From positions 1-64,000 of the forward strand of contig CAUYUJ010014770.1 in assembly GCA_963575745.1 (NCBI GenBank): a stretch of 64,000 bases of DNA. Direction: 5' to 3'. Positions 3,756 through 54,890 of the stretch are shown piece after piece; the first letter of the stretch is position 1; the number at the start of each line of letters is the position of its first letter. Both the position numbers and the translations under genes were made by a program. This DNA comes from Prorocentrum cordatum (taxonomy: Eukaryota > Sar > Dinophyceae > Prorocentrales > Prorocentraceae). The notes under the pieces are model-generated. The model was not told the DNA's origin, did not search any database, and saw only the letters and a list, made by a program, of their open reading frames with translations.

Positions 3756-3765
3756 AAGTCAAAAT

Positions 3766-3948
3766 TGGCTTTCTCCACTTGCTGCCCTCTTTGTATATGG
3801 CCTGATAGACCTTCGCCTGCAGGTTCTCCACGGCGAAGTCCCGGTCCGCGGGCGCGGGTTTGCCACTATATGAAGTAATGCTGCGCCAGCAGGTCTTCAA
3901 AGGTTGTCCACCATGGACTGAGTCGCATATATGCAAATCCATCCTCAT
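3766..3948 (-). pseudogene. Copia A post-protease linker remnant
   Basis: The minus-strand frame contains ADRDFAVENLQAKVYQAI followed by KEGSKW. It matches ADKDFALRNLQAKMYQAI and DEGMKW at about 36.55-36.61 kb in the other copia copy. The function of the block is unknown. It separates the protease from the methyltransferase-like region in the intact order. A TAG lies in the alternative frame just upstream, and homology ends abruptly after KW at the minisatellite. Confidence 0.7.
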
Positions 3949-4030
3949 CGATGGCGTGGTTGATGCCCTTGGCGCCCTGGGACATCATGCATGCACGGGC
4001 GTCCAAGGGAGCAGGCGGCCCCGCGCTGCA

Positions 4031-4700
4031 TCAAGCAGGTTGCCCCGTAATCGGCCCCATGTCTGCGGTCTCCTTGATGGGCGCGGGCGCTTCTCGCATT
4101 GACCCATCGGCCTCTGCTGCTACGCCGTGCTCATCAACTTTGATCGCCAGGTGTCCTGATGGTGTCCGTGTCCTTACGAGATCAAGCACCCTAGCGCCCT
4201 TGCCAAGGAGGAACCTGTGCATGTCCGTACCTGGGGTGGCCATCTCGTCGTTCCCCTTTTCAAGGATCCAGGTGGCCCGCGTGTTCGCCGTGCTCCTCAG
4301 CCCCGGGATTTCGGGCAAAGTCTCGCCAGACCCCTCGGGCCCGTTGCCTGCGTTGGTGTCTAGCCTCGCGACAGCGGGTTTCCCCGCGGAGTCTCCGTTG
4401 CACGTGCAAACGATTTTGCAATGACACGATGTCCTGCACACTGTGGCTCCTTGGCCCACTCCGGTCACGCATAATGGTTTGTCTAGTTTCAGTTTCTTGA
4501 TGTCGTGACCGTGCGAGCGTGAGACTCGCTCAAATGTCTGCGCAGTTTTCAAACCAATGATTATTGCGTTGCTACCGACGCCCAGCAATGAAAGCAACGC
4601 CCCATCAATATGGCCCCACTGTTTGCTGCTAGGGCTAACTTATGTCGGTCGCCGAACATGCCCGGCACAGTGGGCAACATTGCGCCGCGCATGCCCTTCC
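4031..4700 (-). pseudogene. Copia A aspartic protease-like region, decayed
   Basis: This reads ...GSNAIIIGLKTAQTFERVSRSHGH, then GVGQGATVC, then EGSGETLPEIPGLRS and a basic/acidic tail to TGHLAIKVDE. The order matches the dinoflagellate copia retropepsin layout (active-site loop, flap-like GVG segment, then a hydrophobic L-P-x-(I/L)-x-G-L-R-S block). It is paralogous to 46.5-47.2 kb. At the expected Asp-x-Gly loop it reads G-V-G, so the catalytic Asp appears lost. It is inferred to have cleaved the element polyprotein. One Ala-Gly-Lys-Pro-Ala palindrome unit lies inside. The family call rests on conserved order rather than on an intact active site. Confidence 0.6.
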
Positions 4701-5118
4701 GGCGCCTTTGGTTCAATATCCACGGGTCCCTCGCCATAAAAGGTAAATGCGTTCATGTGCGCCTTGTTCTCTTCCTCTGTGATTGGGCAATGCTGGAAAA
4801 TCCAATCAGAAGGGCAATATGCCGAAGGGGGTACTCTTGCGTAAGTGGCACGTTAGCACAGGTGTCCTAATCGGCACGCGCTGCGTTCTGGCCTCCCGCG
4901 TTGACCATCAGCACCGCATGCAGCACGTCACGCTCGGATATAGCGCTGGCGTGGGTTTCCACGCGTTCTGCCACATGGCGCGTCGGATCTCCCAATGTGC
5001 CTGAGCCATGCGTCATCAGCAGGTAGCCCCGCAGGTGTCGATGCAGCAGGCTGCCCCGCAGAAGCAGCAGGTGTCCCAACTGGCGCCGTGGAGCCTGCCG
5101 TCGTGGCCGTGACCCCGT
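4701..5118 (-). pseudogene. Copia A segment between RING and protease, degraded
   Basis: This corresponds to the 47.2-47.6 kb region of the paralogue (matches around ISERDVLHAVLMVNAGGQ). The frame is broken by stops and shifts. It contains palindrome units near 5023 and 5046. No domain of its own is recognised. Confidence 0.5.
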
Positions 5119-5961
5119 TCAGTTCTTCACGAAGGTCCCTGAATTCATTTGCCCTGGTGAGTCTCTCCTTGTGTCGGTTCTCCGCATTGTGCTCGCCTGC
5201 GAGGGCGCAATGAAATCAGCTGCGATCAGTCCTTCACCTCGGCATGCGGCACGCGGCGCCTCGTCGGGGGCGCCCGCCAGCTGTCGGCCCACGTGTGCCT
5301 GCGCAGCGCGGCCCCAACAGAGCGCGTGGAAGATGTGGCCGCATTGGAGCTCCCATACCTTATCATGGCATGCAAACTTTTCAAGGTACACAGCACATGT
5401 AGTGAAATCGTCGTCACTGATGATCAGTGGCGTAGCTGATGGCCTTGTGCGCGATTGCCGCTCAAACGTAGTTTCTCCCGTTGCATAGCGGCTCGGTGGA
5501 GCTGCAGGACTCGCTGGCATATTTGCAGGTGGCCCCGCAGCTACCGGTGTGGCCAATATTTCAAGACGCAGCTCCCCCAACGATGCAGGTGCAACAAGCT
5601 CTGGGCCATGTGGATTCACATTTTTGTCCATGGGGGATGCCAAGTACCCGTAGTGCGGCACCTGACCTGAAATACAGGACACGTATCCCGATCCTCTTGT
5701 GAGCTGAGACCCGTAAAAGTCATCCGCTGCCGCCCTGACGCACGGATTTTCGGGTTGACTTCCGACCCGAGGAACCCCGGTCGTCTGCGCGTAGCATTCA
5801 GGGAACATGGCCGAATCCATATGCGGCGCCACCGGCCTATTGGCCGCTGTCGGATCAGAGCCTGGGTGGCTGAGGAACGCAGGTCTGTATACATATCGGT
5901 TCGGATGATTCGGCGACGGATTTGCGTCAGGCACACTCCCAAGGTGGAGTCGAATTTGCAT
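5119..5961 (-). pseudogene. Copia A RING-type zinc-finger protein segment
   Basis: A 280-codon open stretch. An N-terminal Pro/Asn-rich part carries YVSCISGQVPHYGYLASPMD, which matches YASGVPGQIPHYGYLAPSMD in the paralogue. A RING-like finger follows: CAVY-x-FACHDKVWELQCGH-x-FH-x-LCW, ending RAACRG. Compared with the RING pattern C-x2-C...C-x-H-x2-H-x2-C...C-x2-C, the second Cys is Tyr and one Cys of the last pair is Arg, while the third Cys (LQCGH) is kept. RING domains usually act as ubiquitin ligases, so a role of that kind in this element is an inference. The copy is probably non-functional. Confidence 0.65.
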
Positions 5962-6096
5962 GTGGCAGGTCTTCCCACCTCATGCTCCCCATAGCCTCCT
6001 GCATCCGTCTGTGCATCCACTGCTGCTGTCACAGCATACTGCCGACCCTCTGGGCAGCCTCCAACGTGGGCCTCATCTTGCCGTACTGGTCCATGA

Positions 6097-6594
6097 TCAC
6101 TGGCTGCCAGGTCGGCGCAGTTTGTGGTGCTGCAGCAAGTGGGGATGCAGAAGGCGATGTGGCCTGTAAGGCCTGATAGAGCTGCGGATCCATCCTCGCT
6201 GGAGTCTGGCCTGTAGGCCGTTTGTGCTACCAGCACTCTGTGGAGTGCCAAACAGAGTTGCGGGCCCGCTCATGGGCGCAAACCCAGCGGGTTGCCCCGC
6301 AGGAGCAGGCAGCTGCTGCGCGTGGTTGCGCCACGGATCGTTGGCCAAAAGCTCATCGTTTGGCGTTGCACCACTAAATGTGGTACCCGACACATCGGCA
6401 CTCTGGGCCTGAATCCAGGATCCATCAGAGCCGTCTGCAGGTGCCCCCGCTGGATTCACCTCTTGTAGCATGAATATCGAAGCAAGATGTACCTCTTCTG
6501 TAGGTGAGCTCAGCCTGGGCACACGCAGGTTGAACGGAGTGTCTGGTATGATCCATCCCTTCAGTGTGGAGGATCGAATGGTGTTTCGTACCAT
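6097..6594 (-). pseudogene. Copia A linker, conserved between copies
   Basis: Blocks such as DGSWIQAQSADVSGTTFSG and QQLPAPAGQPAGFAPMSG match the paralogue at 48.63-49.39 kb (DGSWIQARSADVTG; QQLPVPAGQPASFAPMS). The spacing is conserved, so the segment was coding in the ancestor. No known domain is evident. The tail after about 6180 is out of frame and continues in the adjacent frame to about 5950. It carries two shared Ala-Gly-X-Pro-Ala units. Confidence 0.6.
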
Positions 6595-6599
6595 TCCAT

Positions 6600-7606
6600 C
6601 GGTGCGAGCTTAAACCTTGCCCGTTTACCCCACCGAGTGTCAATATGGCCCATGCCTGCCCAACTCGGTGGTGCTCACATTCCTGCTTGTTGTGCTTGAT
6701 GCAGAGAAGTTGGACAAAGGGACTCACCAGGATACGACCTTCACCCCCGAGGTCGTGATGATATCATTGGCGGATCGCCATACTGGGGTACCATCTCGAA
6801 CCAAGGTCTTGAGGCTTACTAAGATCAGAACCTCGGAGTCCATCCGTAGGCCTCACTGGATACGCTCATCGCCAGGCAAATCTGGGCATCCATGAATCAT
6901 CTGTCTGCCTCAGTTTTTCTTTGGATTGTCTTGGCTTCGGCATGTCAGTCCGACGTTCTATATATTCGGGATGCTCGCCCATTTAGTCCCGTGTATGAGA
7001 TAGCGGGGTGCTCCCGCCTCCGTCAAGTCTGTCACTCGAGAGTGCACTGATTCTGGGCATCTAATGCCTGGACTGAACTGCCCATTGCTGGGCCGCAGGC
7101 AGTAAGTCGGGCGGGTGCCCCCGCAGAACGTGAGCTTCTTCACCTGGAGTCGGTTCTTTTGCATGCCAGAATTGTGGTCGACCATCTCACATATTTTCAA
7201 TACAGCTAGTGCCTGGCATGCCCAATGCCTACCCCTGAGGCATTCCTTAACGGCGTCCAGGTGATGATCATGATAAAATTCGTAGTTCTTTGGTGACCCA
7301 TTTTCCAGCAAATCGCTGAAGCATGCCCAACCGTCGAACACGTCGAACGAGGTAACACATTCCGTCAGTTGAGACAAGATATCGTCTTTGTAGAATGGCT
7401 TGTGCCGGGTGGCTGCGGTGAGCCACCCCGAGCAGTGTCGGCAGCTTCATAGAATGGTGGCTTTTGTTCCAGAGCATCGTCCACAGTGCTTCAACTTCGC
7501 CGCTGTAGTTAAGGACTGGCTCTTGCCGCAGCTGATTGCGGACGCGCTGACGTTCGATGGTTTTCTCTGTCACGCGCGTTGCTGCGCGTGCAGTTGAGAA
7601 ATGCAC
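6600..7606 (-). pseudogene. Copia A Tpt1/KptA-like RNA 2'-phosphotransferase domain, decayed
   Basis: The order of motifs follows the Tpt1/KptA family. TRHKPFYKDD holds the N-lobe Arg-His, followed by VFDGWACFSDLLE, GMQKNRLQVKKL, RYLIHGTKWASIP and GLRMDSEVLILVSLK, then WRSANDII. Known enzymes transfer an RNA 2'-phosphate to NAD+ during tRNA splicing. The frame is interrupted by stops after IPNI, around MIHGCPDLPG and before GLRMDSE, and by a frameshift near 7370. The paralogue at 49.41-51.05 kb is far better preserved. The assignment to the family is strong by motif order. Activity in this copy is very unlikely. Confidence 0.7.
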
Positions 7607-9035
7607 TGCCCTTTATCGGCTCGAACCATCGTCAGCATAGGCCCTGCATGCCGGGTCAAAAATTATCTGTCGGGGGGGGCAGCGTCCCCCAGTAGCGTTT
7701 GCTTCCGGCACTTATTTCAAGGATAATAACAGGTTGCCCCGCAAATGCACGCGCAGATGCAGCGGGTGCCCCCGCAGAAGCCGAAGCAGCAGCGCGCGCT
7801 GCGGACGAATTTGCACTTCCAGATGGCTTCTTGCTCTTTTCGCTGATACCAAAGTACTGACACCCGCTCACCTTCGGAGCTACCCCTGGCGCCTCGGATG
7901 CAGTCTGGAGTGCCGCCCCTTCCGCGTCGGGCTGCGAGGCGCGATGCATGGTTGCGCCACCCGGCGACGCCGGCCGGCGAGCTCCCCAGCGGCTCCTGCC
8001 AGGAGCGGGAACGCGTCGCGCAGCGGGTTCCTTCGGCTCGGGCGCGCTGCTGCCCCGGAACGCCGCCGCCGCGGCCGCCGCGGCTGGCCCCGTGGAGCGC
8101 GATATACGAGCAGGTTTCCCAACGGATCGTTGCGGCGTCTCTGCGCCCAGGTCGGCCTCTACCGAGCAGGTTCTCGTCGGCGACCCAGGTGATTTCGACG
8201 CGCTTGCTGATGGGGCACTCGATGATGGAGATAGATCTATTTCCTTCTCAGAGCGCTTCTTGTCAGGGCGCTATGGGGGCTTCGGGAGCTCGTCTGCTTT
8301 CCTGGCGGGCTTCCCCGCCCTAGCGGGCTTGGCCGGTTTCCCCGCGACCTTGCGCGAGGATCTGCGTGGCGAAGGCTTCCCCGCGGGTTTGTAAAATGCC
8401 ATGTGTGTTAATATTGACCTTACTTTTACAATCCAAATTGCATCTTCCATCGAGCAGCTTGCCTCGTGCCATGGAAGTTATCCACCCAGCACTTCTGGCA
8501 TGATACGCCACTGACGTACCTTTTTTCCAAGCCCATGTCCTCCGCCATTGGCACAGTGATGGCCCAATCTGGATCAGTGGTTTCGTAACTGGAGAATGCA
8601 TGTGAATATTCCGACCCAGACGCAGGTAAAGTGGGATCAACAGCTGGCGCGAGGCCAAAAGTTTCGTCCTTTTTGTCCGCCGCAGACTCGTTGGCACCTT
8701 CGTGAGAGGAAGAGGCGGGTTGCCCTGCAGAAGAGGCGACTTGTGCTTCACGCGTGGCCTCGTGGTATCCTCTGTTGTACCGCTTAAGTCGGTGATTAGC
8801 ATCGAGTTCTGTCTATTCTTACTCAACGCGTTGTGCCTGATGATCGTCTAGCGGCTGGTAGTCATCCTTGGTCAGAAGTGCTTCTCTAGGATTACAGGTT
8901 GGGTCCACCCTGCGTCCTAGGCCACCCCCGTGGGGCCAGACCCACGGGGTCCGCTCGGAATTGGGGCTCCTTGAAGCGCGCCCCATCGGGCACTTCGGCC
9001 TGTGGTCTGCAACATCCACGGACCTTTCCTCGATG
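7607..9035 (-). pseudogene. Copia A low-complexity linker region, degraded
   Basis: Fragmented minus-strand frames are rich in Ala, Pro, Lys and Ser. They carry several palindrome units (7728, 7762, around 8306-8345 and 8718). The region corresponds to the Ala/Gln/Pro-rich 50.4-51.3 kb segment of the paralogue. No domain is recognised. The 1.4 kb appears to hold only decayed element sequence. Confidence 0.5.
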
Positions 9036-9583
9036 CTATTTCCGGTCCGCGATGATGGCTCCTTTTGCGCCCTTCCTTTCCGACGTAGCAGCGGTCTTGG
9101 TGCCGCCTCTTCTATTGGTGCGGACGATCTTGCCTTGATCATCCCGCTTCGCATTATTCAATGACCACCAGTGACGGAGTTGGTGCTCGGTGCAACCCTT
9201 GTCCAGCCAATAATCCATGTCTTCGTCTGGCACTATGGCGGGCAAGCCCGGCTTTATGTTCGCCGGCGAGTCTGAGTTGACGCGGGCCATCGGGCCCACC
9301 GGCCCACCTGGGCTTTCGCCATCCTGATGCGGGTTCCCCCGCGAACGTTCCCTCCGAGGCAATTACCTCGGATCAAATGGACGAGGGCGCTGCGCGCCGC
9401 CTTAGCGGGCGCTCGATCGCCTACTCGGATGACTCCGCCGATGGTGGCATGGCTGATAGCACTCGGCATCCCATTCTTCATCGCCATCATCAGTTCGACA
9501 TGCGCGTGTCCAAACCGGGCAGCTCGAATACCTGTCGTTTCGTGCAAAAATGAAGTGAGAGCCTTCATTGCGTCCGAGTTCAC
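9036..9583 (-). pseudogene. Copia A conserved TEHQ-RHW block
   Basis: The frame gives WLDKGCTEHQLRHWWSL then NAKRDDQGKIVR. The paralogue at 51.9-52.07 kb gives WLGRGWTEHQIRHWHSL then AKRNDDGTIIR. The shared Trp, Glu-His-Gln, Arg-His-Trp and Lys-Arg residues suggest a small conserved domain downstream of Gag, with unknown function. The neighbouring frame (9254-9583) holds GGNVRGGTRIRMAKAQ and similar basic sequence. Confidence 0.5.
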
Positions 9584-9800
9584 ATTGAACGCGCTCAGAA
9601 AAGGTCACCTGCGTCACGCGGCTTGCCCCGCGAAAAACCGCCATCGCAAGTTTCCCTGCGCGCGGGGTTCCCGGTCACCTGCGGTCGGAACACCAATTGG
9701 AGCTCCTCCTCCGCAGCTGACATAATATCATCGGAATGTGCAGGTGCCCCCGCCATCTCGTGATCCGAATCGGCGGGCGCGCGGTGGTCCTCGATGAACT

Positions 9801-10450
9801 CTACGCGCGCAGGTTGCCCCGCGATAGGGATGCCGGCCAGTCTGCAAGGTCGATCTCATCGTGGCCGACGCAGATCTCCTCCAAGAGCTCGTCGGCGCAC
9901 CTCTCGAGGAATAACCTGGCGCTCAGATGCGTCGCGGACGTGAAGTGGGCGACGGCTGTGGGGCTGTCTTTCGATTCGGCGAGAAGAGCCCCCCAGTCGA
10001 CATGCTGAATGTCGGAATCGGCTTGGGCCAAACGCATAGACGGCCCCCTGCCATTCCCATCGCCTCGGGGGCGCTCACGACGAGAATGCTGGGCACTATG
10101 GCAGATGCCACACTCCATGGTGCAACCGCTAGCATCATTCGGGCTGCCCCGACGCCCCCCCCCCCCCCTTTTCCTGAGGCGCGTTTACGGCTTCTACCTT
10201 TCCCCAGAAAGACCGCTTCATACTGTGAACCCGTAGAAGATGCCAAGAATGTTAGCACGCCTCTGCCGTGTGATCTCCGTCGCTTGCCCTCGCCTGGACC
10301 CTTGCCCTGTAACCTCAGCACCCGTCGGACTGCGCGTCGCGCTTTCCAGGCGGGCATCTGCATGTAACGTCTCCATCGGCGCTTGTGCATCTGGTGTCCT
10401 AGGAATATCCACTGCGCCTGCTGCTCTTCAGTAATGAGGTGCGCAGGCAT
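9801..10450 (-). pseudogene. Copia A nucleocapsid-like segment with zinc knuckle
   Basis: HLITEEQQAQWIFLGHQMHK, a Lys/Arg-rich stretch (KRRWRRYMQMP...GKGPGEGKRRR) and FLASSTGSQYEAVFLG match the paralogue closely. Next comes ECGICHSAQHSRRERPRGDG, a CCHC knuckle (C-x2-C-x4-H-x4-C) whose last Cys is Arg. The block was probably the RNA-binding nucleocapsid part of Gag. A frameshift at a run of 11 C near 10150 separates the two halves. Confidence 0.7.
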
Positions 10451-11710
10451 CAGTGTCGGTGCCAGACTCGAATTCGGACTCCACGGGTTGCCCCGCCTAG
10501 CCTACGAGGGCAGTGGATTGGGCAGGGGCCGCCGTTGCCGACGGCCCCTGATATCGAGCCCAGGAGTCTCGCGACCCCGTGGGCTGGCCATCTTGTTGGC
10601 TTAATTGAATGGTGGCCTCGTTTGGTTGTGGATCGTCATTCCAGACGTTGTTGGCAGGTTGCCCTGCATGAGTGTCGCCATGCAAGACGCCAGCGCGGTG
10701 GCAATGGCTGAATGCACCACCAATGCTGCCAGGGGTTCGCTCAACAAGATGGGCGCGAGCCCTCGTGCGCTCTAGTAAGGCGGCAAACTGTTGCTGAGTC
10801 CTTGGCACTTGGTGGTTCAATGGTTGTAGTAGTTGCTGCGCACGCGATGTGCCAACAGCTAGAGCTCGAAACCGTATACCTGTTTGGATCTGGAATTTTA
10901 TGACGATGAAGCCCGCGGCGCCGGCGTCGAAGCGCGCTACTTCGAAGTGGGCCAGCGCCTGGCACCCGGTCGATCCGTTCCCCCGCATGGGCGCGACAGC
11001 CAATGAGAGCCGTTCCCGAGTTGAGTCGGCGTTCCTCTTCCAGGTTTTCGAACTTAGCGCTGAAGTGGCGACCGCCGATATTAACGCCGAAGCAAGTTAC
11101 TGCGGGGGGGGCTCTCGCGGCCATGGTCCTTGCGAGCTCTCGCAGACCGCGTTGTAGAGCGACGGCCCGCTGGGGGGGGGCCGCAGTGCCTGCGGCCGCG
11201 TTGATCCAGGCATGTACCTCGCAAACGAACTCGCGGAAAAGTGCGTTACTGGCAGGGCCCCAGTGGGGGCCGGCAGCGCGCGTCGTCTCCGCCGCGCTGC
11301 GCGCGCCCAACGGCGCATCCGATGGCGACCCATAGAAGGCCAAATAAACATAATATCAATCCAGCGGCCCCGAACGTCGCAGTCGGTTGCGCGCTGCTGC
11401 CGCGCGCGCGGCGACGCCGCCGTCAGCGCGCGTGGGGGTGGAGGCGGCGCAACGTCGCACCGCGCGTTGCCGCGCATAGTATCTTCGAAGAAATTGCCAC
11501 TTGGAGCAGGTGGGTGGACTTCAGGAGTGCAGTAGCGCAAAGAGGAAGGACTCAAGTAGGAGACCTCCGCGTGGGCGGATGCATCGCTGCAAGCGTCCTT
11601 GATATTGCGCGCATGTATATACATTCCTCCGCGCAGAGCCACTGCGCCCTGATGTTCCACCATGTCGGTTGTCAACCACATAGCGCCGTGGATGGCGAGC
11701 AGTAGAGCGA
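10451..11710 (-). pseudogene. Copia A Gag capsid-like region, frameshifted
   Basis: From 11710 the frame reads MWLTTDMVEHQGAVALRGGM, GNFFEDTMRGN and CDVRGRW. It shifts near 11330 to FREFVCEVHAWIN...AVALQRGLRELARTMAARA, GVNIGGRH, KFENLEEERRLNSG and CRAHAGERID, and shifts again to LLQPLNHQVPRTQQQFAALL. These blocks match the Gag of the paralogue (53.6-54.55 kb). Capsid function is inferred from position after the LTR, the amphipathic helical content and the following zinc knuckle. About 15 codons present in the paralogue (TDGVTYITFLLRT) are missing between GRH and KFEN. Confidence 0.6.
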
Positions 11711-11728
11711 TAGCTGTCCCCCGCAGGA

Positions 11729-11742
11729 CAGCTCCGCTACCG
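11729..11742 (-). other. Primer-binding-site-like sequence of copia A
   Basis: Directly 3' of the 5' LTR on the coding strand lies CGGTAGCGGAGCTG. Copia elements commonly prime from initiator tRNA-Met, with a site starting TGGTA. The first base differs here. Confidence 0.45.
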
Positions 11743-12014
11743 AGTTTGAAGCTGGCCGGGGGGCCCCACCAGATGCTTCGCCCAAGGCGAAGCCCACGTC
11801 CAACTCTGTTGCACAGTAGTAACGATAGTCCCAAGAGCAGGAGAGAGTCGCGGGGGCGACGAGCCATGTCAAGCGAAGATGTTCTTCGGTCTCCGTGGCA
11901 AACAGCGCACCTCGCGACGAGGCGCAGTCATATCTTGGCGGCCGGACGCTTGGGCGCAAACGGCCGAGGAAAAACGCGCGCTACATCTCGCCTTTGCCCA
12001 ACCCCCTTTAGAGT
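11743..12014 (-). repeat. 5' LTR of copia element A
   Basis: The stretch from AGTTTGAA to TTTAGAGT (plus strand) is homologous to the LTRs at 29263-29529 and 54629-54890. The shared blocks are GATAGTCCCAA, ATGTCAAG, CCTCGCG-GAGGC and GGCGGCCGG. All three copies lose similarity immediately after TTTAGAGT, which fixes the outer boundary. It contains the weakest version of the spliced-leader-like sequence (11949-11969, 14 of 21). Confidence 0.8.
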
Positions 12015-12913
12015 GACCCGAGGTAGAGGCGAGGGGGCTTTCGGAAGCGCATGCTCGCGCGCCTCAGGTCCCGCGCAGGCCTCAACGCGAAACCCCCGTC
12101 GTCGCGCGCCTCCCCCATCGCGAAGAACACGGCCACCTCCGACGTGCAGACGCTGGTGAAGCCCAGCATCCCAGACTCCCAGAGCCTCGCAGCGAAGTCC
12201 AGCCTCGCCGACTTGCGACGTAAACTCGGGTCGGCGCAGGCGCGTGCGTTCTCGATGTCCGCCTCTTCCACCTGACTCGGCGGCGGGGCCATCTTCTCGC
12301 GGAACCTGTCGCAGCAATGCCCGGCCATCGGCGATGCCGGCTCGATGTCGCATGGCTCCGCCCCCGCTGGTGGCAGAGACGCTTCGCCGCTCGCGACGAG
12401 CATGACTTCCCCTCGTTCTGGCGCTCCCTCGTCGCCGATCGAGACAACTATGGCCGCGCGCGGCCCAGTCTTTACTCGCGAGGCCAGCCGCTCGAAAGCG
12501 GACTCGGCGTCGGAGGCGCGCATCTTCAGGTTGCGGGCCTCTCGGTGGCACTGCGGCGCCCTGTCGGAAATCCTCCGCGGCAGCTCGCGGCTCATCGCCC
12601 ACTCCTCCGCGCTGCCCCATGCCGCGTCTCGAAGTCGGTCATGCCAACCAGTCGTCGACGCCGTCAAGGACATCGCAGCCGCGTTCGCCCTGCCTCCGAT
12701 CGCCCTCTCCTGGGCCGTCCGAGACCTCGATCGCCCCGAAGCCGACGCCGTGGGCTCGGGAAGGCCGAGGAGCGGCAGCACCTCCGGCGGGCCCCTGATT
12801 CGACCATCGGATGGGAACTCGCACTCCGCTCTCATCACGATGAGAAGTTCAAGAAATAACGCTGCTGCGCACGTAGGTGAAGTGAGCTGCTGCCAAGGCC
12901 GCGGCAGCAGCAA
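12015..12913 (-). pseudogene. Element D reverse-transcriptase N-terminal fragment
   Basis: A 300-codon frame ends in LWESGMLGFTSVCTSEVAVF followed by FAMGEARDDGGFALRPARDL and MRFRKPPRLYLGSL. This fits the fingers region of dinoflagellate reverse transcriptases (a short-loop L-x-SGML, then a V-x-x-FF strand, then R-x-x-D-x-R-x-x-N-like and PP-x-x-LGS blocks). The reading ends exactly where the copia A LTR begins, so the palm with the catalytic Asp residues is absent. The upstream part of the frame is acidic/Ala-rich. RT identity is an inference from this one block. Confidence 0.45.
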
Positions 12914-31820: not shown

Positions 31821-31823
31821 GTC

Positions 31824-41217: not shown

Positions 41218-41248
41218 CTGCTGCGATCGCTAGAAGCCGCTCTCGCTT

Positions 41249-41495: not shown

Positions 41496-41518
41496 CGCGG
41501 CTCGGTGCCGCGGGAAAA
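41496..41518. repeat. Third hairpin unit
   Basis: CGCGGCTCGGTGCCGCG followed by GGAAAAGG, matching the pair at 41251 and 41284. Confidence 0.85.
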
Positions 41519-42730: not shown

Positions 42731-42747
42731 GGCGTGACGGTGCGCCG

Positions 42748-45480: not shown

Positions 45481-45484
45481 ACCC

Positions 45485-45780: not shown

Positions 45781-46032
45781 TAGGTGCGCGCGCCCCCAGC
45801 GCACCAGCCAACCGCGCGCGGCTCCGCCCCGCGCGCGCGCGGCTACGCCCCGCGCGCGCCGCGCGCGGCCGCGCGGCCGTGCCGCCGCGCTTGGAGCTCA
45901 CGCAACCGATCCCCAGGAGACAGAGCGCGGCGCCAGACTTTGACCATGCCATTGCACTGCGTCTCATCCCGCTTCGGCAGCCCCGCGAATCCCACAATGA
46001 CGCGGCGTACGCCGAGGGGGAGATTCGGAGAC
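45781..46032. other. DIRS element leader, no gene
   Basis: CG/GC dinucleotide-rich sequence (45810-45890), then mixed DNA up to repeat A1. Confidence 0.35.
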
Positions 46033-46467
46033 AAGGGAAGTCCGCAGGCGCGTGGGCCCCCGCAGGGGCCCGCCTGCCATGGGGCACACAATCTGCGGCC
46101 GCAAGCGCGTGGGCCCTTGCGGGGGCCCGCCTGCCCCTGGCCCTCGCAGGCCCCTGGGCCCCCGCAGGGACCCGCCTGCCCTTCGGCCGTTACATGCTAT
46201 CCCGCCACGGACCCGGGCGGACGGTGGGCACGGGCCGCCGCCGAGAGGCACGGCGGCCCACCCGAGACCCGAAACCGACAGACGAGGCAGCAGCACTGCA
46301 GCCCTGGCGAGCAGCGCGAGGCTCGGGGAAGCGAAAGAGAGACTGAGTCAAGAGCGCCAGGCTCGGAGGAGCGAAAGAGCGATTGAGTGACAGAGGTACG
46401 GAGGTAGTCGAACGCGGGACGGCACCAGGAATTTATACGCCTGCCAAACCTCCGATTTACATGGTAT
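46033..46467 (-). repeat. Split direct repeat A1
   Basis: Partner of A2 (36867-37300). Its right end (TTTACATGGTAT) abuts copia C sequence. Confidence 0.88.
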
Positions 46468-47273
46468 TCAATGGAAAAGCTGATGCCCCTCGTGTCTTGC
46501 GACATCATGTACGCTTGGGCATCGCGCACAGAAGGTGCCCCTGCAGTTGGCTCTGCGTCGGAAGCTTCCTTGACGAGAAACGGAGCTTCTCCACGCGGAG
46601 GATTGGCCGTGATAGTAAAAAACATCGACCCTTGATCCTCCGTAACCGTCTCGTATTCGTCGGCTTTGAGTGTCAGATGCCCGGGGGGCGTCCTCATCAA
46701 ATCAAATGCCCCGGCACCCTTTCCGAGTAGAGCCCTGCGCATCTCCACTCCAGGGATGATCATATTCTCGTGCCCCTGCTCGAGGATCAGCATGGCCCCC
46801 ATGTTGGACATGCTCCTCATACCCAGAATAGCAGGCAGGTTCTCCCCAGAGCCCTCAGCCACATTAACTGAATACGTATCAAGTCTCGGCACAGCAGGTT
46901 GCCCCGCGGAATCTCCCATTTCTTTGCACGCGATTTTGCAGCGCAGGGATTTATCACACATCGCGGCGCCATGTCCCACTCCCCACACATACAGTCTTCT
47001 TGTGAGATTCCACCTTTTAGTAGCGTGTCCGTGGGAACGTGATACCTGCTCGAAATTATGTGCCGTCTTTAACCCAATGCTATCAATATTACTGCCCATC
47101 TCCAATATAATAATCAACATACCAGTGGTCATAGCCCCACTGCTGGCAGCCAAAGCTAACTCATGGCGTTCGCCGAGTGGTCCAGGAACTTCGGATACTG
47201 TCGTACCGTGTAGGCCTTTTACGGCGCCTTTGCTCCAACACCCAATCGTTTCTTGACAAGGATGTAGATACAC
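46468..47273 (-). pseudogene. Copia C aspartic protease-like region
   Basis: Reads MGSNIDSIGLKTAHNFEQVS then RSHGHATKRWNLTRRLYVWG, VGHGAAMCDKSLRCKIACKE, AEGSGENLPAILGMRSMSNM and GAMLILEQGHENMIIPGVEM. The frame stays open to the DIRS junction. It follows the retropepsin layout of dinoflagellate copia elements, but the loop that should read Asp-x-Gly reads Glu-Met-Gly. Next comes PGHLTLKADEYETVTEDQG and MMSQDTRGISFSIE, where the nested element begins. One palindrome unit (46894, SAGQPAVPR) interrupts it. Confidence 0.7.
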
Positions 47274-48555
47274 TCATATACCCACGCGCTTCTTCTTCCG
47301 TAATAAGGTTTTTTTCAAAGATCCAAGCTGCGGGGTATTCGTCATGCGTATATGGATGTGACGTGGAGGCAGTGGGCAAATTCATGAACGTATCTTCCTC
47401 CGCGCGCATGCTCATCTGGCCGTCGGTATTTACCATAAGTACCGCGTGCAGCATGCCGCGTTCAGAGATCCCACTGCTACCACTGCGCATGCTGACGGGG
47501 CTCTCAGTTCTGCGCTGACTGCGTGAACGAAGGTCTCGCCCATATGGCATGCATGCGTGCGAAGACTGAAGCCAGTGGGCGCTCCTGTCAGTAGCCCTTT
47601 CCAAGCGCCTCAACCATGTATCATTCACTGGTACCGAAGGTGGGGCCGATCGGGCAGGTATCCCTGCGTTGCTGTCGGTCTCTGCTACCAGTGGAATAGG
47701 TACGTCAGTAGCAGGTGTCCCTGCGAGTGTAGCTGCCTCCGTGACTAACCCCGCGCTGGCCGATGATGCAAGTATCCCCGCGGGAGTCGTCATCGATATC
47801 TCCGCGGTGCTGGTCATCATGGCTGTAACGCGGTTGAGCTCTTCACGGAGGTCCCTGAGCTCGTTCGCCCTCTGGGGAGTATCTTCACGACGATCATGTG
47901 CTTCCTGATCTCCAGCAAGAGCGTAGTGGAACCCGGCAGCAATGAGGCCAACACCCCTGCATATGGCACAGGGGGCGTCACACGCGGAACCTTCCATGTT
48001 ACCAGCCACCTGTCTATCCACATGGGAGTGTACCACGCAATCCCAACATTGTGCGTGGAATGTGTGGCCGCGCTGGAGACGCCAGATCTTATCGTTATTC
48101 ATGCACAGGTCCAGGCATATGGCACACTTACTGAAATCGCCGTCACTAATGATGGGCGGTGTTGCCGCTGGCCTGATGCGCATCTGACGCTCCAGGTTGG
48201 ATTCACCAGCTTCGAATCGAATAGGTGAAAAAGTCGGCAGCTGCATCGATGCAGCCATGGCTGGACTGCTCGCAGGTGTCCCTGCTGCATTGTGGTTAGC
48301 AGGTTGCCCTGCGCGGCTCAGCATTCTGTTGGCCTGACGATATTGATGTCGGCGCTGCCGTGTGGCCTGCATGGCCAAGTTGGCTTGCTGCGCCTTGTGC
48401 GTGGCCAGGATCTCAGGGCGCATCGCTCCCATGGTCGGTGGCAGCACTGGGCCTGGAGCCTGCTGCTGCACATCTTGATCCATGGAGGGTGCCAGATAAC
48501 CATAGTGAGGTATCTGTCCTGGCACACCTGATGCATATCCTGAGCCACGTGTCAA
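47274..48555 (-). pseudogene. Copia C RING-finger polyprotein segment, long open frame
   Basis: The open frame runs 48555-47161 (464 codons), overlapping the protease frame. N-terminal GYASGVPGQIPHYGYLAPSM, then Gln/Ala-rich sequence. The RING-like finger is FSKCAICLDLCMNNDKIWRL then QRGHTFHAQCWDC...CDAPCAICRGVG. Against C-x2-C...C-x-H-x2-H-x2-C...C-x2-C only the third Cys is changed (Arg in LQRGH). Then a coiled stretch (ELRDLREELNRVTAMM) and RRLERATDRSAHWLQSSHAC. It has six or more Ala-Gly-X-Pro-Ala-type units. It was probably part of the Gag-Pol precursor. A RING suggests ubiquitin-pathway interaction, which is inference. Confidence 0.7.
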
Positions 48556-48631
48556 CTGAGACCGATAGAAATCGTCGGCCGTCGCCCGAACAGATGGTTT
48601 TCAGGCAGTGCTCCCACCCGAGCAGTTCCAC

Positions 48632-49390
48632 TCACCTGTGCATGATAATCAGGAAAGTCGGGTGGCCGAAGAATGCTGGCACATAACCAAACCGATTGGG
48701 GTTGCCCGGAGAAGGATTTGGATCCGGAACATACTCCCACGGCGGCGTCCAGTTGGCACTAGGGAGGTCTACGCCATCCCTCCGCATGCTCTGGGCGGCC
48801 TCACGCATCTGCCGGTACATCCTTTCCTTCTGACCAACTAAACTTCTCTGTATGGCGCATTGGTCTGGGATAGCAGGTTGCCCCGCAGTTGGACGTGGCG
48901 ATGCAAACGGCGATGTTGCCTGTAGAGCCTGGTAGAGCTGCGGATCCATACGAATACTTTGGAGCCTCGCCTGCAGGCTGTTGGTGCTCCATGCACTCTG
49001 TGGGGTGCCAAATGGTGTAGTAGCTCTGCTCATAGGAGCGAACGAAGCAGGTTGCCCTGCAGGTACTGGCAGCTGTTGAACCTGAGCACGCCACGGATCT
49101 TTAGCGTATAACGTATCAGTAGGCGTAATACCACTTGGCGTAATGCCCGTCACATCAGCGCTCCGAGCCTGTATCCATGATCCATCAGATCTCCCTGCAG
49201 GTGCCCCTGCTTGGCATGCGTTCATCATGAACACCTGTGAAAATACAATCGGAAGCGGATCGGGGCACTTCAAGTTGTAGGGGGCATCTGGAACAAACCA
49301 ATTCTTTAACGATGATGCGTCATTACGAATCTCGTCCATCTCATCAATTCTAGTACTCGTGCACGGCTGGTTGTCGCCCTTCAAATACAA
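48632..49390 (-). pseudogene. Copia C linker, conserved between copies
   Basis: A 252-codon open stretch with NWFVPDAPYNLKCPDPLPIV, DGSWIQARSADVTGITPSG, QSIRMDPQLYQALQATSPFA and GQKERMYRQMREAAQSMRRD then NWTPPWEYVPDPNPSPGNPN. It parallels element A at 5.95-6.6 kb. Palindrome units lie at about 48873, 49047 and 49195. The unit at 48873 is absent from A. No domain is known to me. Confidence 0.6.
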
Positions 49391-49405
49391 GGGATTTATC
49401 CATAG

Positions 49406-51054
49406 TTACCCCACGCGATTGCACTGACAAGCGTGACTTGGCAAGATCCCGATCAACTGGACGATGTGAGTAGGAGGGATCCTGCCATTACGGCCTGCTG
49501 TCATGACAATGTCGTTCGCCGAACGCCACACTGGAATATTGCCCCGAATCAGGTTCTTCAGGCTGACCATGATCAGGACCTCAGAATCCATGCGTAAACC
49601 AGATTGGATTCTATTGCCACCAGGGAGGTATGGGCATCCATATACAAACTGCCTGCCCCTCTTCTTACTGGTGTCGTCGGCGCGACAGGATAAACCTATG
49701 CTGAGAATACCCGGTACATTCTCCCATTGAGTTCCATGAATGAAATACCGAGGCGCCCCAGGTGCCGATAAGCCAGTGAATCTCATATATAGGGGTTCTG
49801 GGCACCTGATGCCAGGGCTGCTATGCTCGTTGGATGGGCGGATGTGTAAGTGTCGTAGGTCATATCAGAATACCTCATCTGCTTGAATTGCAGCCTGTTC
49901 TTTTTCATTCCGGACTCATCTATCATGCCGATGATCTCCGAGACAGCATGGGCCTGATACGCCCAGTGGCGATGTTTAAGCACGCGACGTACCGTGTCAA
50001 TATATTTAGGGTGGTCGCGTGCTCGTCCTTCTGCAGGCCACGTGCTGAGTAGCTGCGATATGTCTACCCAACCGTCGTACTCGTCATAGGACGTAACTTC
50101 ACGAATGAATATGCATGATAAGCGACCACTATGAAATGGTTTGTGACGGAGGGCTGTTGTCAGCCACTCAGGCACCTCACGTTGTTCTCCATGCTGGAAT
50201 CTCGGCCTGCGAAGATTGTCCGTGGCGAAGGTGTTCTTCAAGTACTCTTTCTCTGAACCCAACGAGAGGGAATGGCGTTTCCGCAGGATGTTGCGCACTG
50301 ACTGGCGCGCGCGTGCACCTTCGTCAGACTGGACAGCAGTGTCCATGATGCTGTACTGCACAACCATGTCGCGATCAGATCCATCATCACTTCGCGGATG
50401 ATATGCTGGATTGATCTTCGTGCGGTTGCCTGTGCGCATCCTGTCCCAGTAGTCCTTACATTCCGATGGTATCTCCGGCGCAAGGGCGGGTTGCCCCGCT
50501 GGACTGTCAGCAGGTTGCCCCGCAGAGCTCTGAGCAGGTTGCCCCGCAGAACGTGCGGCAGCCTTTGACGCTGGTGCTGCAAGCGTTGCTGCGCCCGCAG
50601 CCGATGCAGTCGCACCAGCAGAACCTCTGGGCGTCCTTGGGGGTCCTTGCGGGGTGCTGATGTCGAAGTCCTGGTGTTTCTTCTCCTTGGCGTTGTAGGA
50701 CTCGATATCCTTGTCCCTGGGCACTGCTCCTGGTACCTTTGGTGTAGTAGCTGGGAGCTTCCCAGTATGCCTCGTGGAAGATGCATCCCTTGCTCCTGCC
50801 TCCAAAGTAGGCGCCCATCCTGACCTGTGCGTCCGACCAGGTGTAGGGCCGCGACGTGGAACAGGATCCCTTGGGGTAGGCTTACTGGCGCCCTGGAATC
50901 CGGCTGCTGCGGCGGCCACTGCTGGCCCTCCAGGTCGTTGTCGATCAGCGCGTTGCTCAGCAGGTTGCCCAGCATCTCTTGATGCCCCCAGGATTAGGAT
51001 AATCGCCTGGGCCCCTGCGCTTCTTCTCCATGGGCCCAGGATGATCAGGGCCAA
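49406..51054 (-). CDS. Tpt1/KptA-like RNA 2'-phosphotransferase domain of copia C
   Basis: Two abutting frames (51054-49783 and 49786-49406) carry an Ala/Gln/Pro-rich N-terminus and then the full motif series of the Tpt1/KptA family. WLTTALRHKPFHSG has the lobe-1 Arg-His, followed by EYDGWVDISQLLSTW, GMKKNRLQFKQM, RYFIHGTQWENVPGILSIGL, GLRMDSEVLIMVSLKNLIRG and PVWRSANDIVMTAGRNGRIP with PTHIVQL. Known members remove the 2'-phosphate left by tRNA ligation, using NAD+. Only one shift (around 49785, near NPYI) separates the halves, so this is the best-preserved accessory domain in the window. Four palindrome units sit just upstream (50486-50547 and 50961). Activity is unproven. Confidence 0.75.
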
Positions 51055-52363
51055 GGGATGGGCTCATTGAGCCAGAATCAGAACGAGGGAAGTTCGATCG
51101 TTTCTGGCTGCGGTTCGGGCGCTGCCTCTGCCGCAGCTCCTGCCAGCGCCCCAGAAGAATACCGACGATAACGTTTTATGTGACCCCGGTCAGGATTCAG
51201 ATCTTCACCACCTGGCCTCCTGAGGGCCATGCTCTCAAAAAGAACTTCGTGTTGGTCTCTCTTGTGTTTTCCACAGAGTAAGTACATATCTGCGCTGCGT
51301 CATTCGGCTATGAAAGTAGTGATCCAACCCGCACCGTGGGCAGGGTAAGCGATCAGCCTGCCAGGAGAGAGCCCCACGTCTCTCGTGACAACGTAATTGG
51401 GGTCGATCTGAGTATCAATATCACACGTAGCATCGGTGATACCCGAATCACTTGCTTCACCGTCGCCAAGGGCGGCTTCCGTAGGATCAACATCTTCAGC
51501 CATTTCAGCATCTTCATCTTCAACTTCATAGACGTCTGGTTGGCTCTCTTCTTCTGATGTGTACTCGGCAGGTTTCCCTGCCTGCCAATCACGATCGAAC
51601 TGCGCCAGATAATGAGTTGGTGTCAAGCTCTTCCAAATAGCCTTTTGTTCGTTTCATTTCTGTAGCTGTAGCAGGGAGGTAATCCTCTTCCGTCAGCCGC
51701 TTATCGTAGGGCGTTCTGTTGGGATCAGCACAGTTGCCCCGACCATCCCCATGTGACCAAACCCGGTGTTCTTTTGACATTCGGACTTCTTGATGGGCGT
51801 CTCATGGGACAGCCAAGCCTGCGATCGGCATAGCTGGGGCATGTGCAGCAAACGCCTCGATACTGCTTTCGATCCTCGATGATGGCCTTTTTTGTTATCG
51901 CGCACGATCATCTTTTCCTGCGTTTGAGTCTGTCCCTTCGTCGAACGAATGATAGTACCATCATCGTTTCGCTTAGCTTGGCGAAGAGAGTGCCAGTGTC
52001 GGATTTGATGTTCGGTCCAACCTCTACCCAACCAGCGTTCCATCGTCTCTGCAGGTATATACTGACGAGCCAATCCAGGTTTGTTCCAGCCTTTTAAACG
52101 CTGTTATTGGCTTCCTGGATATGCTTCTCCTCGATGCCGATCGTCTTGGGGCGGGTTTCCCCGCAGACGTTCCCTCCCTGGGGGGGCGCGCGCTCTTGGC
52201 GCCTTCCCTGGCGGGCCACTTGAAGTCCCCGCCCCAGGAGGATGAGGGCGCTGAACACCGCTCGAACGAGCACCACTGGAGCGGGCTCGCGCCCGATCCG
52301 GTGAGAGGCTAGGAGCTCGACCGCGACGTACCATGCGGTCATCCTGTTCATCCTCGTCGTCCA
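51055..52363 (-). pseudogene. Copia C linker with TEHQ-RHW block
   Basis: Frames: ARQYIPAETMERWLGRGWTE then HQIRHWHSLRQAKRND (51.95-52.07 kb), matching element A. Then THYLAQFDRDWQAGKPAEYT and an acidic region EVEDEDAEMAEDVDPTEAAL with TDATCDIDTQIDPNYVVTRD. Then YLLCGKHKRDQHEVLFESMA. Frameshifts near 51700 and 52075. Palindrome units near 51570 and 52156. Unknown function. Confidence 0.55.
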
Positions 52364-53590
52364 TTAGCGAAAGACTTGGATCGTCGTGGTATTCTTTTTC
52401 CTGATGAAGGGCGCGCGGCGCGGCGATTGCCTCGGACTGCTGGCGGACCGATCTGACGCAACAGAAGTATACTGAAATTCTTCATTCTGTCCAAGCTCAT
52501 ATTGAATACGTTCAGATAGGTCGCCAGCGTCACGCGGGTTTTCCCGCAATGGATCATCATCGATCGATTCCGTGTTTGTCGGATTTCCAATCACCCGAGG
52601 ATAAAGCATGGCATGAACTTTTTCACCCGTTGCAGGAATGGTAGAATCAGAGTCCGCGGGCGCCCCCGCCATACCAAAGTCACCTTCGACGGGCATGTGG
52701 AAATTCTCGACAAACTCTATATCTGCAGGTTGCCCTGCGATGGGCGTGCCCAGCCACTCTGCCAAGTCGATATCGCCTTGGCCGGTGAACACCTCTTCGA
52801 ACAGCTCGTCGGCGTAATTCTCGAGGTTCACGCAGGCACAAATATACCCGGCAGCCGCGCAATGAATGACTGTGGCTGAGCCGTCAGCAGGGTCGGCCAA
52901 AAGCGACTCCCAGTCGACGCGCTGCATGTCGGAGTCCGTCTGAGCCCAATGTATTGACGGACCCCTGCCTCTTCCATCGCCTTGGGGGCACTCGCGTCGG
53001 AAATGTTGTGTGCTGTGGCGTATGTCGCACTCTATAGTTTCACCGCTGGCATCCTTTGGATTCCCTCGTCGTCCCTTACCTTTGCCTGACGTGTGCCTAC
53101 TGTTCCTGCCAGCACCCAAAAACATGTCTTCATACTGGGGCCCAATGAGAGATGCTAGGAATCCTAGTATGCCTCTACCGTGTAGTCGCCGACGCTTGCC
53201 CTTGCCTTTACTTCGACCCTTGCCTTTTCCTTCGAGCGTCCGCCGTGCCATACGTCGCGCCCTTCTGACTGGTTTCTGCATGAATCTCCGCCAACGACGC
53301 TTGTGCTTTTGATCGCCCAAAAATAACCACTGAGCTTGCTGCTCTTCAGTAAGGTATGTAGGCATATCAGAGTAGTCCAGCGCGGTAGTTTCATCATCAG
53401 AATACGTATCGGTATCGGTACCGGAGTCGAGGTCGGACTCGGCGGGTTGCCCCGCAGAGCCCATTAGGGTCATAGCTTGTGCAGGGGAGACCGCGTCGGG
53501 TGGTCCCCTAGATCTGGCCCAGGGGTCTTGAGACCCCGAGGCCGTGCCGCCATTCTGGGCCAACAATGTAGTGGTCTCAGACGGTGGCAT
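52364..53590 (-). pseudogene. Copia C nucleocapsid-like segment with zinc knuckle
   Basis: 408 codons without a stop. YLTEEQQAQWLFLGDQKHKR then RWRRFMQKPVRRARRMARR is a basic region, then FLASLIGPQYEDMFLGAGR. The knuckle is ECDIRHSTQHFRRECPQGDG, i.e. C-x2-C-x4-H-x4-C with the second Cys changed to Arg. The downstream part is acidic (ENYADELFEEVFTGQGDIDL) with palindrome units (AGQPADIEF at 52724, AGAPADSD at 52661, SAGQPAES at 53442). Presumably the RNA-binding part of Gag. It parallels element A at 9.8-10.45 kb. Confidence 0.75.
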
Positions 53591-53623
53591 ATCATCGTTC
53601 TGCAGCTATGCGAGCATATGACC

Positions 53624-54546
53624 TCATACGTTCGAGGAGAGCATCAAATTGTGCTTGGTCCCTCGGCATATGGTGGTTGAGAGGCTGCAGGAGCTGCTGT
53701 GCCCGCGACGCCCCCCCCCTCCCAGAGCTCTGGATAATACTGCTGCTAATATATGGTAGTTGGGGATGTTGAAGCCGGCGGCTTCTGCTTCGTAGCGGGC
53801 TATCTCATCTCGAACCGTGCTAACGACTGGTCGAGTATGTCTCCCGCGTGGGCACGAAAGTGTATTAGAGCCGTGCCAGAAGTGAGTTGGCGTTCCTCTT
53901 CTAGGTTCTCGAACTTCGTCCTTAAGAGGAACGTAATGTAGGTGACGCCGTCGGTGTGGCGACCACCTATATTGACACCAAAATTGATGACTGCTGGGGG
54001 AACTCTCATGGCTATGGTCCGTGCGAGCCCTCCAAGACCGCGCTGGAGTGCGGCGGCCTGTTGGGAGGGCGTCATGTTGCCTGTGGTCACGTTGATCCAG
54101 GCGTGTACCTCGCGGACAAACTCGCGAAGTGGTACTTGACCGGCAGGATCCCAATGGGGGCCGTTCGTCCTAGTGTCGTCTTCGCCCCGCATATGTCCCA
54201 CCGCACATCCAAGAGCAACCCATATGAGCCTAAAAATAGTAGCCCCATTCCAACGGCCTCGTAGGTCGTAGTCGGGTGTAGTCGGTGGAGACCCGTGTTT
54301 TGTCGTCGTAAGTCTTCGAAGGGTCGGAGGCGGCAGTATATCGTATCGCATGTTTCCATGCATTATATATTCGAAGAAATTTCTAATTGGAGTAGGTGGG
54401 TGGATTTCAGGAGTGTAATAGCGCAGGGATGTACAATATGAATCAGAAACCTCCGCTGGGGCAGAGGTGTCGCTGCAAATTTCTTTGCGGTACTGCGTAT
54501 CTATGTACACTCCTCCGCGCAATGCCACTGCACCCTGATGTTCCAC
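53624..54546 (-). pseudogene. Copia C Gag capsid-like region
   Basis: MEHQGAVALRGGVYIDTQYR then IRNFFEYIMHGNMRYDILPP, VPLREFVREVHAWINVTTGN, AALQRGLGGLARTIAMRVPP, FGVNIGGRHTDGVTYITFLL and KFENLEEERQLTSGTALIHF then RAHAGDILDQSLARFEMR. After a shift near 53800 it continues DEIARYEAEAAGFNIPNYHI and LLQPLNHHMPRDQAQFDALL. The helical repeats and the EE-R...F-x-R-A-H-x-G motif are typical of dinoflagellate copia Gag as I know it. A run of C at 53710 marks one frameshift. This is the first ORF after the LTR. Confidence 0.65.
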
Positions 54547-54613
54547 CGTAACTGTAGTCCACCAAATAGTGCCGTGGATGGTGAGGAGTAGAGCTAGAGC
54601 TGACCACCATAGG

Positions 54614-54628
54614 CCAGCGCCGATACCA
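54614..54628 (-). other. Primer-binding site of copia B+C
   Basis: On the coding strand the LTR is followed at once by TGGTATCGGCGCTGG. The initiator tRNA-Met site used by many copia elements begins TGGTATCAGAGC, so 10 of the first 12 bases agree. Confidence 0.65.
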
Positions 54629-54890
54629 AGTTTGAAAAGGGCTGGGAGGCCCCGCTAACAGCTTCGTCTCAGGCGAAGCCAAGCTCCAGCTCGGCTGTAT
54701 CGTAGTAGCGATAGTCCCAATGCAAGATGGGATGTCATGTCAAGTAAAAGGGGATGCCCTTTAGTATCAATGGCGATAATGTGCCTCGCGGTGAGGCACA
54801 GTCAAATCTAGGCGGCCGGCCGCTTGAGCCAAGACGGCCGCGGGCGCACGCTCGTTTCGGCTCCTTACGTCCCCCAGTTCGCTTTAGAGT
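54629..54890 (-). repeat. 5' LTR of copia B+C
   Basis: 262 bp, direct repeat of 29263-29529 and homologous to 11743-12014. It contains the palindrome GGCGGCCGGCCGC (54811-54823) next to the spliced-leader-like sequence. Transcription of the element on the minus strand should start within it. Confidence 0.88.
54823..54843 (-). promoter_or_regulatory. Spliced-leader-like sequence in the LTR
   Basis: Coding-strand CCGCGGCCGTCTTGGCTCAAG agrees with the dinoflagellate spliced leader CCGTAGCCATTTTGGCTCAAG at 17 of 21 positions. All four differences are transitions, and the last 10 bases are identical. It lies about 47 bp from the LTR start. The left LTR copy (29462-29482) has one more change. Confidence 0.4.

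Follow-up and report, generated by a model that had tools for sequence, protein, structure and literature searches.

Palindromes that lie in frame inside protein-coding genes are known from Rickettsia, where the palindromic elements measure about 100 nt or more and are seen as insertions. In long terminal repeat (LTR) retrotransposons, packaging is usually ascribed to the leader region, and the GACG hairpin pairs of murine-leukaemia-type retroviruses are reportedly linked to packaging. These pairs have been described in the 5' untranslated region (PMC5086612), and the dispersed packaging signals described for single-stranded RNA (ssRNA) viruses are many short stem-loops running through the coding genome (PMC6281560). 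Cyanobacteria carry HIP1, the highly iterated palindrome GCGATCGC (PMC4390886), and Copia elements are given as the most abundant retrotransposons of the dinoflagellate Symbiodinium (PMC5890265). Here we describe a 14-nt hairpin found in large numbers inside the coding sequence of Copia-type LTR retrotransposons of another dinoflagellate, Prorocentrum cordatum, starting from a 64,000-nt stretch of its genome (assembly GCA_963575745.1, contig CAUYUJ010014770.1, positions 1 to 64,000; hereafter the window). The explanation that we favor, with about even confidence, is a dispersed, strand-specific RNA hairpin, which the element's own Gag most likely uses as a tag for binding or packaging; on the structural side this explanation is well supported, and the function we infer.

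A short hairpin dispersed through Copia-type elements

Read on the coding strand, the motif is 5'-GCRGG-GNNR-CCYGC-3', a 5-bp stem closed by a GNNR loop. The pattern GCRGGNNNNCCYGC has 41 exact matches in the window, compared to a mean of 0.88 and a maximum of 4 in 100 dinucleotide shuffles; 39 of them lie inside three Copia-type element blocks (15 in A, 7 in B, and 17 in C) and two (40373 and 45090) lie outside. Matches with one mismatch number 18 in the element regions, where several are evident decayed copies, and 25 elsewhere. A sequence-only reading of the window, made before this analysis, had counted about 50 sites; the strong excess stands, but the exact matches are 41, and the coordinates it listed are right except for two that were off by one (the correct starts are 35494 and 52725). 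The sites were picked by pattern, hence only their flanks are free evidence for the limits of the unit: in aligned sites, the flanks carry 0.0–0.65 bits, which makes the limits sharp and the short palindrome 14 nt long, not 14–15 bp as initially proposed.

The excess extends to the entire host genome (4.128 Gb in 21,875 contigs), the search of which had been suggested on the strength of the window. The unrestricted palindrome matches 144,794 times vs. 78,071 for the reversed control, and the GNNA-loop form matches 61,787 times, both strands summed, vs. 6,571 for its reversed control; the excess amounts to about 55,000 matches to the 14-nt hairpin pattern in a 4.1-Gb genome. The longer copies examined hold 24 to 31 sites each, half-copy A has 15, and copy D, a relative elsewhere in the genome, has 17 in 14 kb. 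Isolated sites are near background: on contig C1, which hosts the copy with long open frames used throughout this work (2045383–2061821; hereafter C1), a length of 3.56 Mb has seven isolated GNNA sites, or about 2 per Mb (control, 1.6 per Mb). Sixteen random 10-kb slices held no GNNA site and seven unrestricted ones vs. three for the control; these slices say little because only about two GNNA sites are expected there at the genome average. Rfam searches at gathering thresholds returned no match in the window, and literature searches, which covered few subscription papers, turned up no description of the motif.

Constraint on letters, strand, and frame

The motif is mostly translated as Ala-Gly-X-Pro-Ala (AGxPA), in codons that are far from ordinary. 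Among the 25 AGxPA units of C1, GGG encodes Gly in 23 (17% elsewhere), CCC encodes Pro in 22 (15% elsewhere), and GCG encodes the first Ala in 24 (24% elsewhere), with the third base of the last Ala free. Constraint on synonymous letters is also evident between C1 and a copy at C2:1699001 (hereafter the C2 copy), which share 91.7% identity over one piece and 96.5% over another: with sites defined as exact in either copy, all 69 fourfold-degenerate positions in sites are unchanged vs. 2,188 of 2,465 elsewhere (p = 0.0006), and when sites are chosen from C1 alone, 66 of 66 are unchanged. Counting all letters, there are 5 changes in 392 site columns and 904 in 15,741 columns outside; three of the five fall in the middle of the loop, one at the first loop base, and one at the last stem letter. 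In an alignment of 62 rows (block C, 60 relatives drawn from 148 scored matches, and block A; hereafter the C family), the majority letter has a share of 0.938 at nine fourfold site positions and 0.808 at 97 others (p = 0.007; the rows are related). It is thus well supported that the motif is conserved as nucleic acid: the stem, the loop G and purine, and the synonymous positions are held, while the flanks and the middle loop bases vary. The proposal that a nucleotide-level motif resides in coding sequence is borne out.

The hairpin also has a direction. In the six stretches examined, the GNNA loop is sense in 103 cases and antisense in one (two of the stretches, C1 and the C2 copy, are closely related, so the counts are not all independent). 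Selection for the peptide cannot explain this bias because the reverse complement of the palindrome also reads AGxPA. In copy D, at L085:506-519 (C2:1609506), the loop is reversed (GCGGGTAACCCTGC) where the block B site at 33323 has the usual orientation, and both read AGxPA. With stem positions 3 and 12 unconstrained, the pair on the coding strand is G-T, A-T, or G-C in 38 of 41 element sites, A-C in one, and another combination in two; the loop is GNNA in 34 and GNNR in 40. The table of A/G by T/C at these positions, window and copy D together, gives p = 0.022. Folded as a 14-mer, a common form reaches −7.1 kcal/mol sense vs. −1.6 kcal/mol antisense, and the C1 form −9.3 vs. −7.8 kcal/mol; of the four forms folded, the three common ones are better sense and the rare A-C form is not. 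In context, each of the five stretches tested gives the stem a higher probability in sense than in antisense. Orientation, G-T tolerance, loop identity, and synonymous constraint together point to single-stranded sense RNA, or to cDNA of the same sense.

If the letters matter, why do they so often spell the same peptide? The AGxPA frame is probably preferred because a small flexible peptide is tolerated in linkers. It is the usual frame but not the only one. When phase is called by homology to C1 proteins, 28 of the 34 placeable window sites are in the AGxPA phase (p = 6e-9 vs. one third; 5 of 39 were unplaced), and in C1 itself the frame is AGxPA in 23 of 28, the second frame in two, and the third in three (p = 1.5e-7 vs. 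one third). The claim that the motif is always read as AGxPA, never in another frame, therefore holds as a strong preference and fails as a rule: six window sites (7111, 8305, 9329, 31535, 52151, and 52534) are out of phase, some of them in decayed stretches where the call is weaker, and five C1 sites (2045815, 2045924, 2045939, 2059404, and 2061374) lie out of frame with unchanged letters. The site at 31535 reads QRGHLP, and its letters are kept at the same place in copy D. Copy D, with 10 of 17 sites in phase, was read from run-through alignments of a decayed copy and is unreliable; C1 is our main reliance.

Lineages differ in the flavor of the hairpin. At position 12, C1 has C in 25 of 27 sites and copy D has T in 15 of 16, while Pro codons elsewhere are alike in the two (15–17% CCC and 25% CCT). 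Some sites are common to both lineages, e.g., 2056193 in C1 corresponds to 34711 in the window and 2058748 to 32138; since these sites occupy the same places, the site set seems to have shifted together. Either co-evolution with a motif reader or homogenization could account for this flavor. CpG decay was considered as the source of the R/Y variation, both variable stem positions being CpG positions, and its part is at most minor: the CpG observed/expected ratio is 0.89–0.97 in all five stretches, and most C-family rows agree on the version of a site instead of differing here and there.

Origin of the sites and competing explanations

The relatives were the best-scoring members of long candidate lists (148 of 7,973; 150 of 2,900; 150 of 4,471; and 67 of 37,086). 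At 48873, 49047, and 49197, no empty allele and no new position occur among the 60 best-scoring C-family relatives, which have the site in the same columns, intact or mutated. The exception at 48873 is the distant copy A, in which the sequence is unrelated and longer; the 15-nt presence/absence difference reported there (40 vs. 25 nt) rests on an unaligned TGCGCC, and copy A is not the shorter one. Aligning many copies, as the sequence-only reading had recommended, thus revealed no precise 15-nt presence/absence among the best-scoring relatives. At 35494, net length differs by at most one residue among the best 150 of 4,471 candidates. The site at 7111 is gap-free in all 32 relatives that were read from the best 150 of 2,900 (20 aligned, 12 unaligned): nine are exact, the others have at least one mismatch, and distant ones differ at the same length. 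This site seems to have arisen by point changes, although chance similarity is possible at this one site.

Three sites of the C2 copy are absent from C1: a 30-nt unit holds one of them and 24-nt units the other two, each unit being in tandem with a site; the proposed spreading by duplication is supported in this form, between two close copies. A fourth difference between these copies is a single letter. Conversely, the C1 site at 2054723 lies in about 108 nt where the C2 copy has about 21 nt, a presence/absence within a larger length difference. Many site pairs are 15–45 nt apart, and in the six stretches, the spacing of neighbors closer than 70 nt is always a multiple of three. The model that emerges is that a family of Copia-type elements carries the hairpin in large numbers inside coding sequence, with sites that multiply locally by in-frame tandem duplication and, in at least one case, seem to come from point changes. 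As a dispersed tag, the hairpin would be recognized in the element's sense RNA, or in cDNA of the same sense; its reader would most likely be the element's own Gag/nucleocapsid zinc-knuckle protein, a candidate for which the purpose would be packaging; and tag and protein would change together in each lineage. Gag with its CCHC knuckle is our first choice of reader by analogy with dispersed packaging signals and GACG hairpin pairs, and this choice is a guess. An extended version, which we offer tentatively and consider rather doubtful, is that Gag recognizes its own RNA along the whole length through two dozen lineage-specific tags, with tag and reader changing in concert and AGxPA being the price paid at the protein level.

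Several observations weigh against the tag. The fourfold comparison between copies rests on a single pair, and relying on the best-scoring relatives may under-sample lineages devoid of sites. In 164-nt contexts, stem probability exceeds 0.5 in only 40 of 84 sites sense vs. 27 of 84 antisense. Gene conversion or template switching, instead of a binding protein, could explain the flavor of a lineage, and sense RNA is indistinguishable by sequence from cDNA of the same sense.

What else could produce such a pattern? A mutational process without function, in which hairpins in single-stranded cDNA or RNA induce template switching or conversion and thereby keep stems complementary and the sites of a lineage alike, is unlikely, though it comes first among the rivals. 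It fits the lineage-wide choice between CCC and CCT, the 24- and 30-nt tandem units, and the many close pairs, but it would have to be limited to 14 nt, spare the flanks, respect orientation, and prefer one frame; three C-family sites, moreover, hold distinct common versions side by side. Somewhat less probable is the idea that opened this inquiry, a miniature frame-respecting palindromic insertion element, or a hairpin-driven duplication, spreading inside coding sequence. The sharp 14-nt limits with free flanks, the local tandem duplication, the stretch around 2054723 mostly missing from the C2 copy, and the shorter C1 sequence at two sites (six residues fewer than B and D at 35494, five fewer than C at 46894) can be cited for it, and the latter two sites are possibly old insertions. 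Were insertion indifferent to strand, however, both orientations would be expected, given that the palindrome encodes AGxPA in each, and 103 of 104 GNNA sites are sense. No clean 14–18-nt insertion was seen among the best-scoring relatives sampled, neither as an empty allele or new position in the C family nor by net length in the B-region set; with 7111 gap-free and isolated sites on the C1 contig near the control rate, the insertion element in its original form is abandoned.

The two remaining rivals we consider very improbable. A protein motif, i.e., an AGxPA linker or polyprotein protease site with the palindrome a by-product of codon bias, would account for the pooled frame preference (82% of sites vs. 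33% by chance) and for the scarcity of sites in the pol region. It is largely refuted by the codons, which at sites differ sharply from those of the same residues elsewhere: GGT..NNC codons would serve the peptide equally well and are almost absent, mixed codons occur in only two of the 25 AGxPA of C1, and the same 14 letters appear in other frames. A linker or protease-site repeat would leave synonymous choice free, and the codon and fourfold tests show that at these sites it is not. Least probable of all, by a hair, is a signal in double-stranded DNA, either a cruciform or a palindrome that a dimeric DNA-binding protein would recognize. The near-perfect inverted repeat with its fixed 4-nt spacer would suit it, but the one-sided loop orientation and a 3/12 stem pair that on the coding strand takes G-T and hardly ever A-C are unexpected for a strand-symmetric site.

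The carrier elements and their place among known systems

The carriers form a family of Copia-type LTR retrotransposons of about 16 kb. The three window blocks, A (3760–12015), B (29263–37301), and C (46200–54890), are all coded on the minus strand. The earlier description of two copia copies was right about the type, but three blocks are present and C and B are probably one element. Most simply, C and B are halves of a single element (29263–54890, minus strand) split by a nested insertion, as suggested by LTR-like ends at 54629–54890 and 29263–29529 (90.6% identical), by the flanking repeats, and by copy D, where gag/mid and then pol parts follow one another within 14 kb, colinear with C plus B. 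Inside this element, a GC-rich block at 36860–46467, with 442-nt direct repeats at its bounds (95.2% identical), looks like a nested LTR element. Block A is the gag/mid half of a related Copia-type element. C1 has two near-identical LTRs (293 nt, 98.6% identical), a weak match to a CCHC knuckle in the gag region (E 0.0022, just under the Pfam cut-off), and a match to a Copia-type reverse transcriptase (RT; RVT_2, E 0.0007, below the curated cut-off, the match divided in two by slicing). In the window, an rve match lies in the open reading frame (ORF) at 32009–33168 (E 0.0095, below the curated cut-off), and a Pfam scan found no RVT_2 match in the ORF at 29781–30988. The order, integrase before RT, would be that expected for Copia, though both domain matches fall below the curated cut-offs.

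A KptA-like RNA 2'-phosphotransferase domain (PF01885, E 5e-15) is present in C1, followed by a RING finger (E 2e-7); this KptA/Tpt1-like domain inside a Copia-type polyprotein is at L003:658-1077 and, by alignment, at approximately 6745–7110 and 49480–49880 in the window. A protease-like and a cytosine methyltransferase-like stretch may also be present, judging from the letters of the carrier, and neither has a Pfam match in C1; for Symbiodinium, Copia elements are described as having no such methyltransferase (PMC5890265).

Relatives were sought more widely. Element E (L005; two sites) was taken up as a motif-poor relative and rejected: it is badly decayed, and several positions look like lost sites. 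Among 31 metagenome gag relatives, which are proteins without DNA and cover only part of gag, AG.PA is absent in 30 and present three times in one. Two Pyramimonas sp. proteins from EukProt (P0001 and P0002) match parts of the window element at 75% and 46% identity, with AGQPA present in them as well; either a green alga has a related element or that set is contaminated. A protein search with one C1 piece gave no match, and two scans of viral contigs gave no relatives. Contig C8069 (511–29095) has protein-level matches 100% identical to pieces of blocks A and B, which marks it as a second assembly of the window, allelic or duplicate. Simple repeats at 2120–3001 and 28189–28998 translate into long Arg-Glu, Ser-Leu, or Tyr-Ile runs.

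All 39 element sites are on the minus strand. In block A, AGPPA is the phase at 4011–4024 and the reading at 5525–5538 (which aligns with 48272), AGKPA is at 4374–4387 (aligns with 46894), and AGLPA is at 5019–5032. AGQPA is read at 5046–5059 (aligns with 47654), 6287–6300 (with 49047), 8715–8728 (the sole A-C type at stem 3/12 in the element regions), 9809–9822 (with 52725), and 10654–10667, and AGAPA at 6437–6450 (with 49197), 9740–9753 (with 52656), and, in an open frame unplaced by homology, 7762–7775. Other frames are found at 7111–7124 (CGGTRP) and, by homology, at 9329–9342 (RGNP; aligns with 52151) and 8305–8318 (not AGxPA, a weak call). Block B has the out-of-frame site at 31535–31548, AGRPA at 32138–32151 and AGQPA at 34711–34724 (both at the same place in C1 and D), AGKPA at 33323–33336 (D reading AGNPA in the reversed orientation) and 35494–35507, and, in open frames unplaced by homology, AGKPA at 36315–36328 and AGAPA at 36507–36520. 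Block C begins with AGQPA at 46894–46907, in the protease-like region, followed by AGIPA at 47654–47667, AGTPA at 47711–47724 and 48272–48285, and AGQPA at 48299–48312, 27 nt from its neighbor. The sites at 48873–48886 (AGQPA), 49047–49060 (AGQPA), and 49197–49210 (AGAPA) are exact in 43, 49, and 47 of the 62 aligned rows, respectively. A series of AGQPA sites spaced by 24 nt occupies 50486–50499, 50510–50523, and 50534–50547; AGKPA is at 51568–51581. The remaining sites are 52151–52164 (RGNPP, another frame by homology), 52534–52547 (LRENPR, another frame, loop AAAA; a one-mismatch form in copy A), 52656–52669 (AGAPA), 52725–52738 (AGQPA), and 53442–53455 (AGQPA; a one-mismatch form in copy A at 10483).

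With about 55,000 matches to the hairpin pattern above control, held at synonymous letters inside genes of retrotransposons, the genome would offer a large natural set of sites for RNA recognition. Should these be packaging tags, dispersed packaging signals would become a model that also covers LTR retrotransposons, and natural lineages would supply matched pairs of tag and reader. A wider caution is that a peptide repeated in a mobile element can be the shadow of a signal in the nucleic acid.

How does the hairpin compare with what has been described? Like the packaging signals of ssRNA viruses, it is a stem-loop with a common loop motif, spread in many copies through a coding RNA, as seen in the sequence and partly supported by folding in context; unlike them, it belongs to an LTR retrotransposon, and its copies are near-identical. 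It shares short stems, GNNG-type tetraloops, and an arrangement in pairs with the GACG hairpins, which lie in an untranslated leader, whereas here 7–31 sites per stretch examined are within coding sequence. As in Rickettsia, a palindrome is tolerated in frame within coding genes, but this one is 14 nt long, and no clean insertion, with precise presence or absence, was seen among the best-scoring relatives. PARCEL also encodes a repeated peptide in dyad-symmetric DNA, with a link to mobile elements in some taxa; its 25-residue amphipathic tandem repeats differ from our five-codon unit and dispersed 14-nt hairpin, which does not belong to that class. HIP1 is similarly very short and very abundant, yet it is perfect, loopless, and genome-wide, while ours is looped and frequent in one element family. 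Gene order and weak Pfam matches put the carrier in one superfamily with the LTR Copia elements of dinoflagellates; it differs in its KptA and RING domains and the hairpin series, for which no search was made in other Copia elements. Dispersed palindromes and dispersed RNA stem-loops are both known; as far as we have seen, their combination in an LTR element is new.

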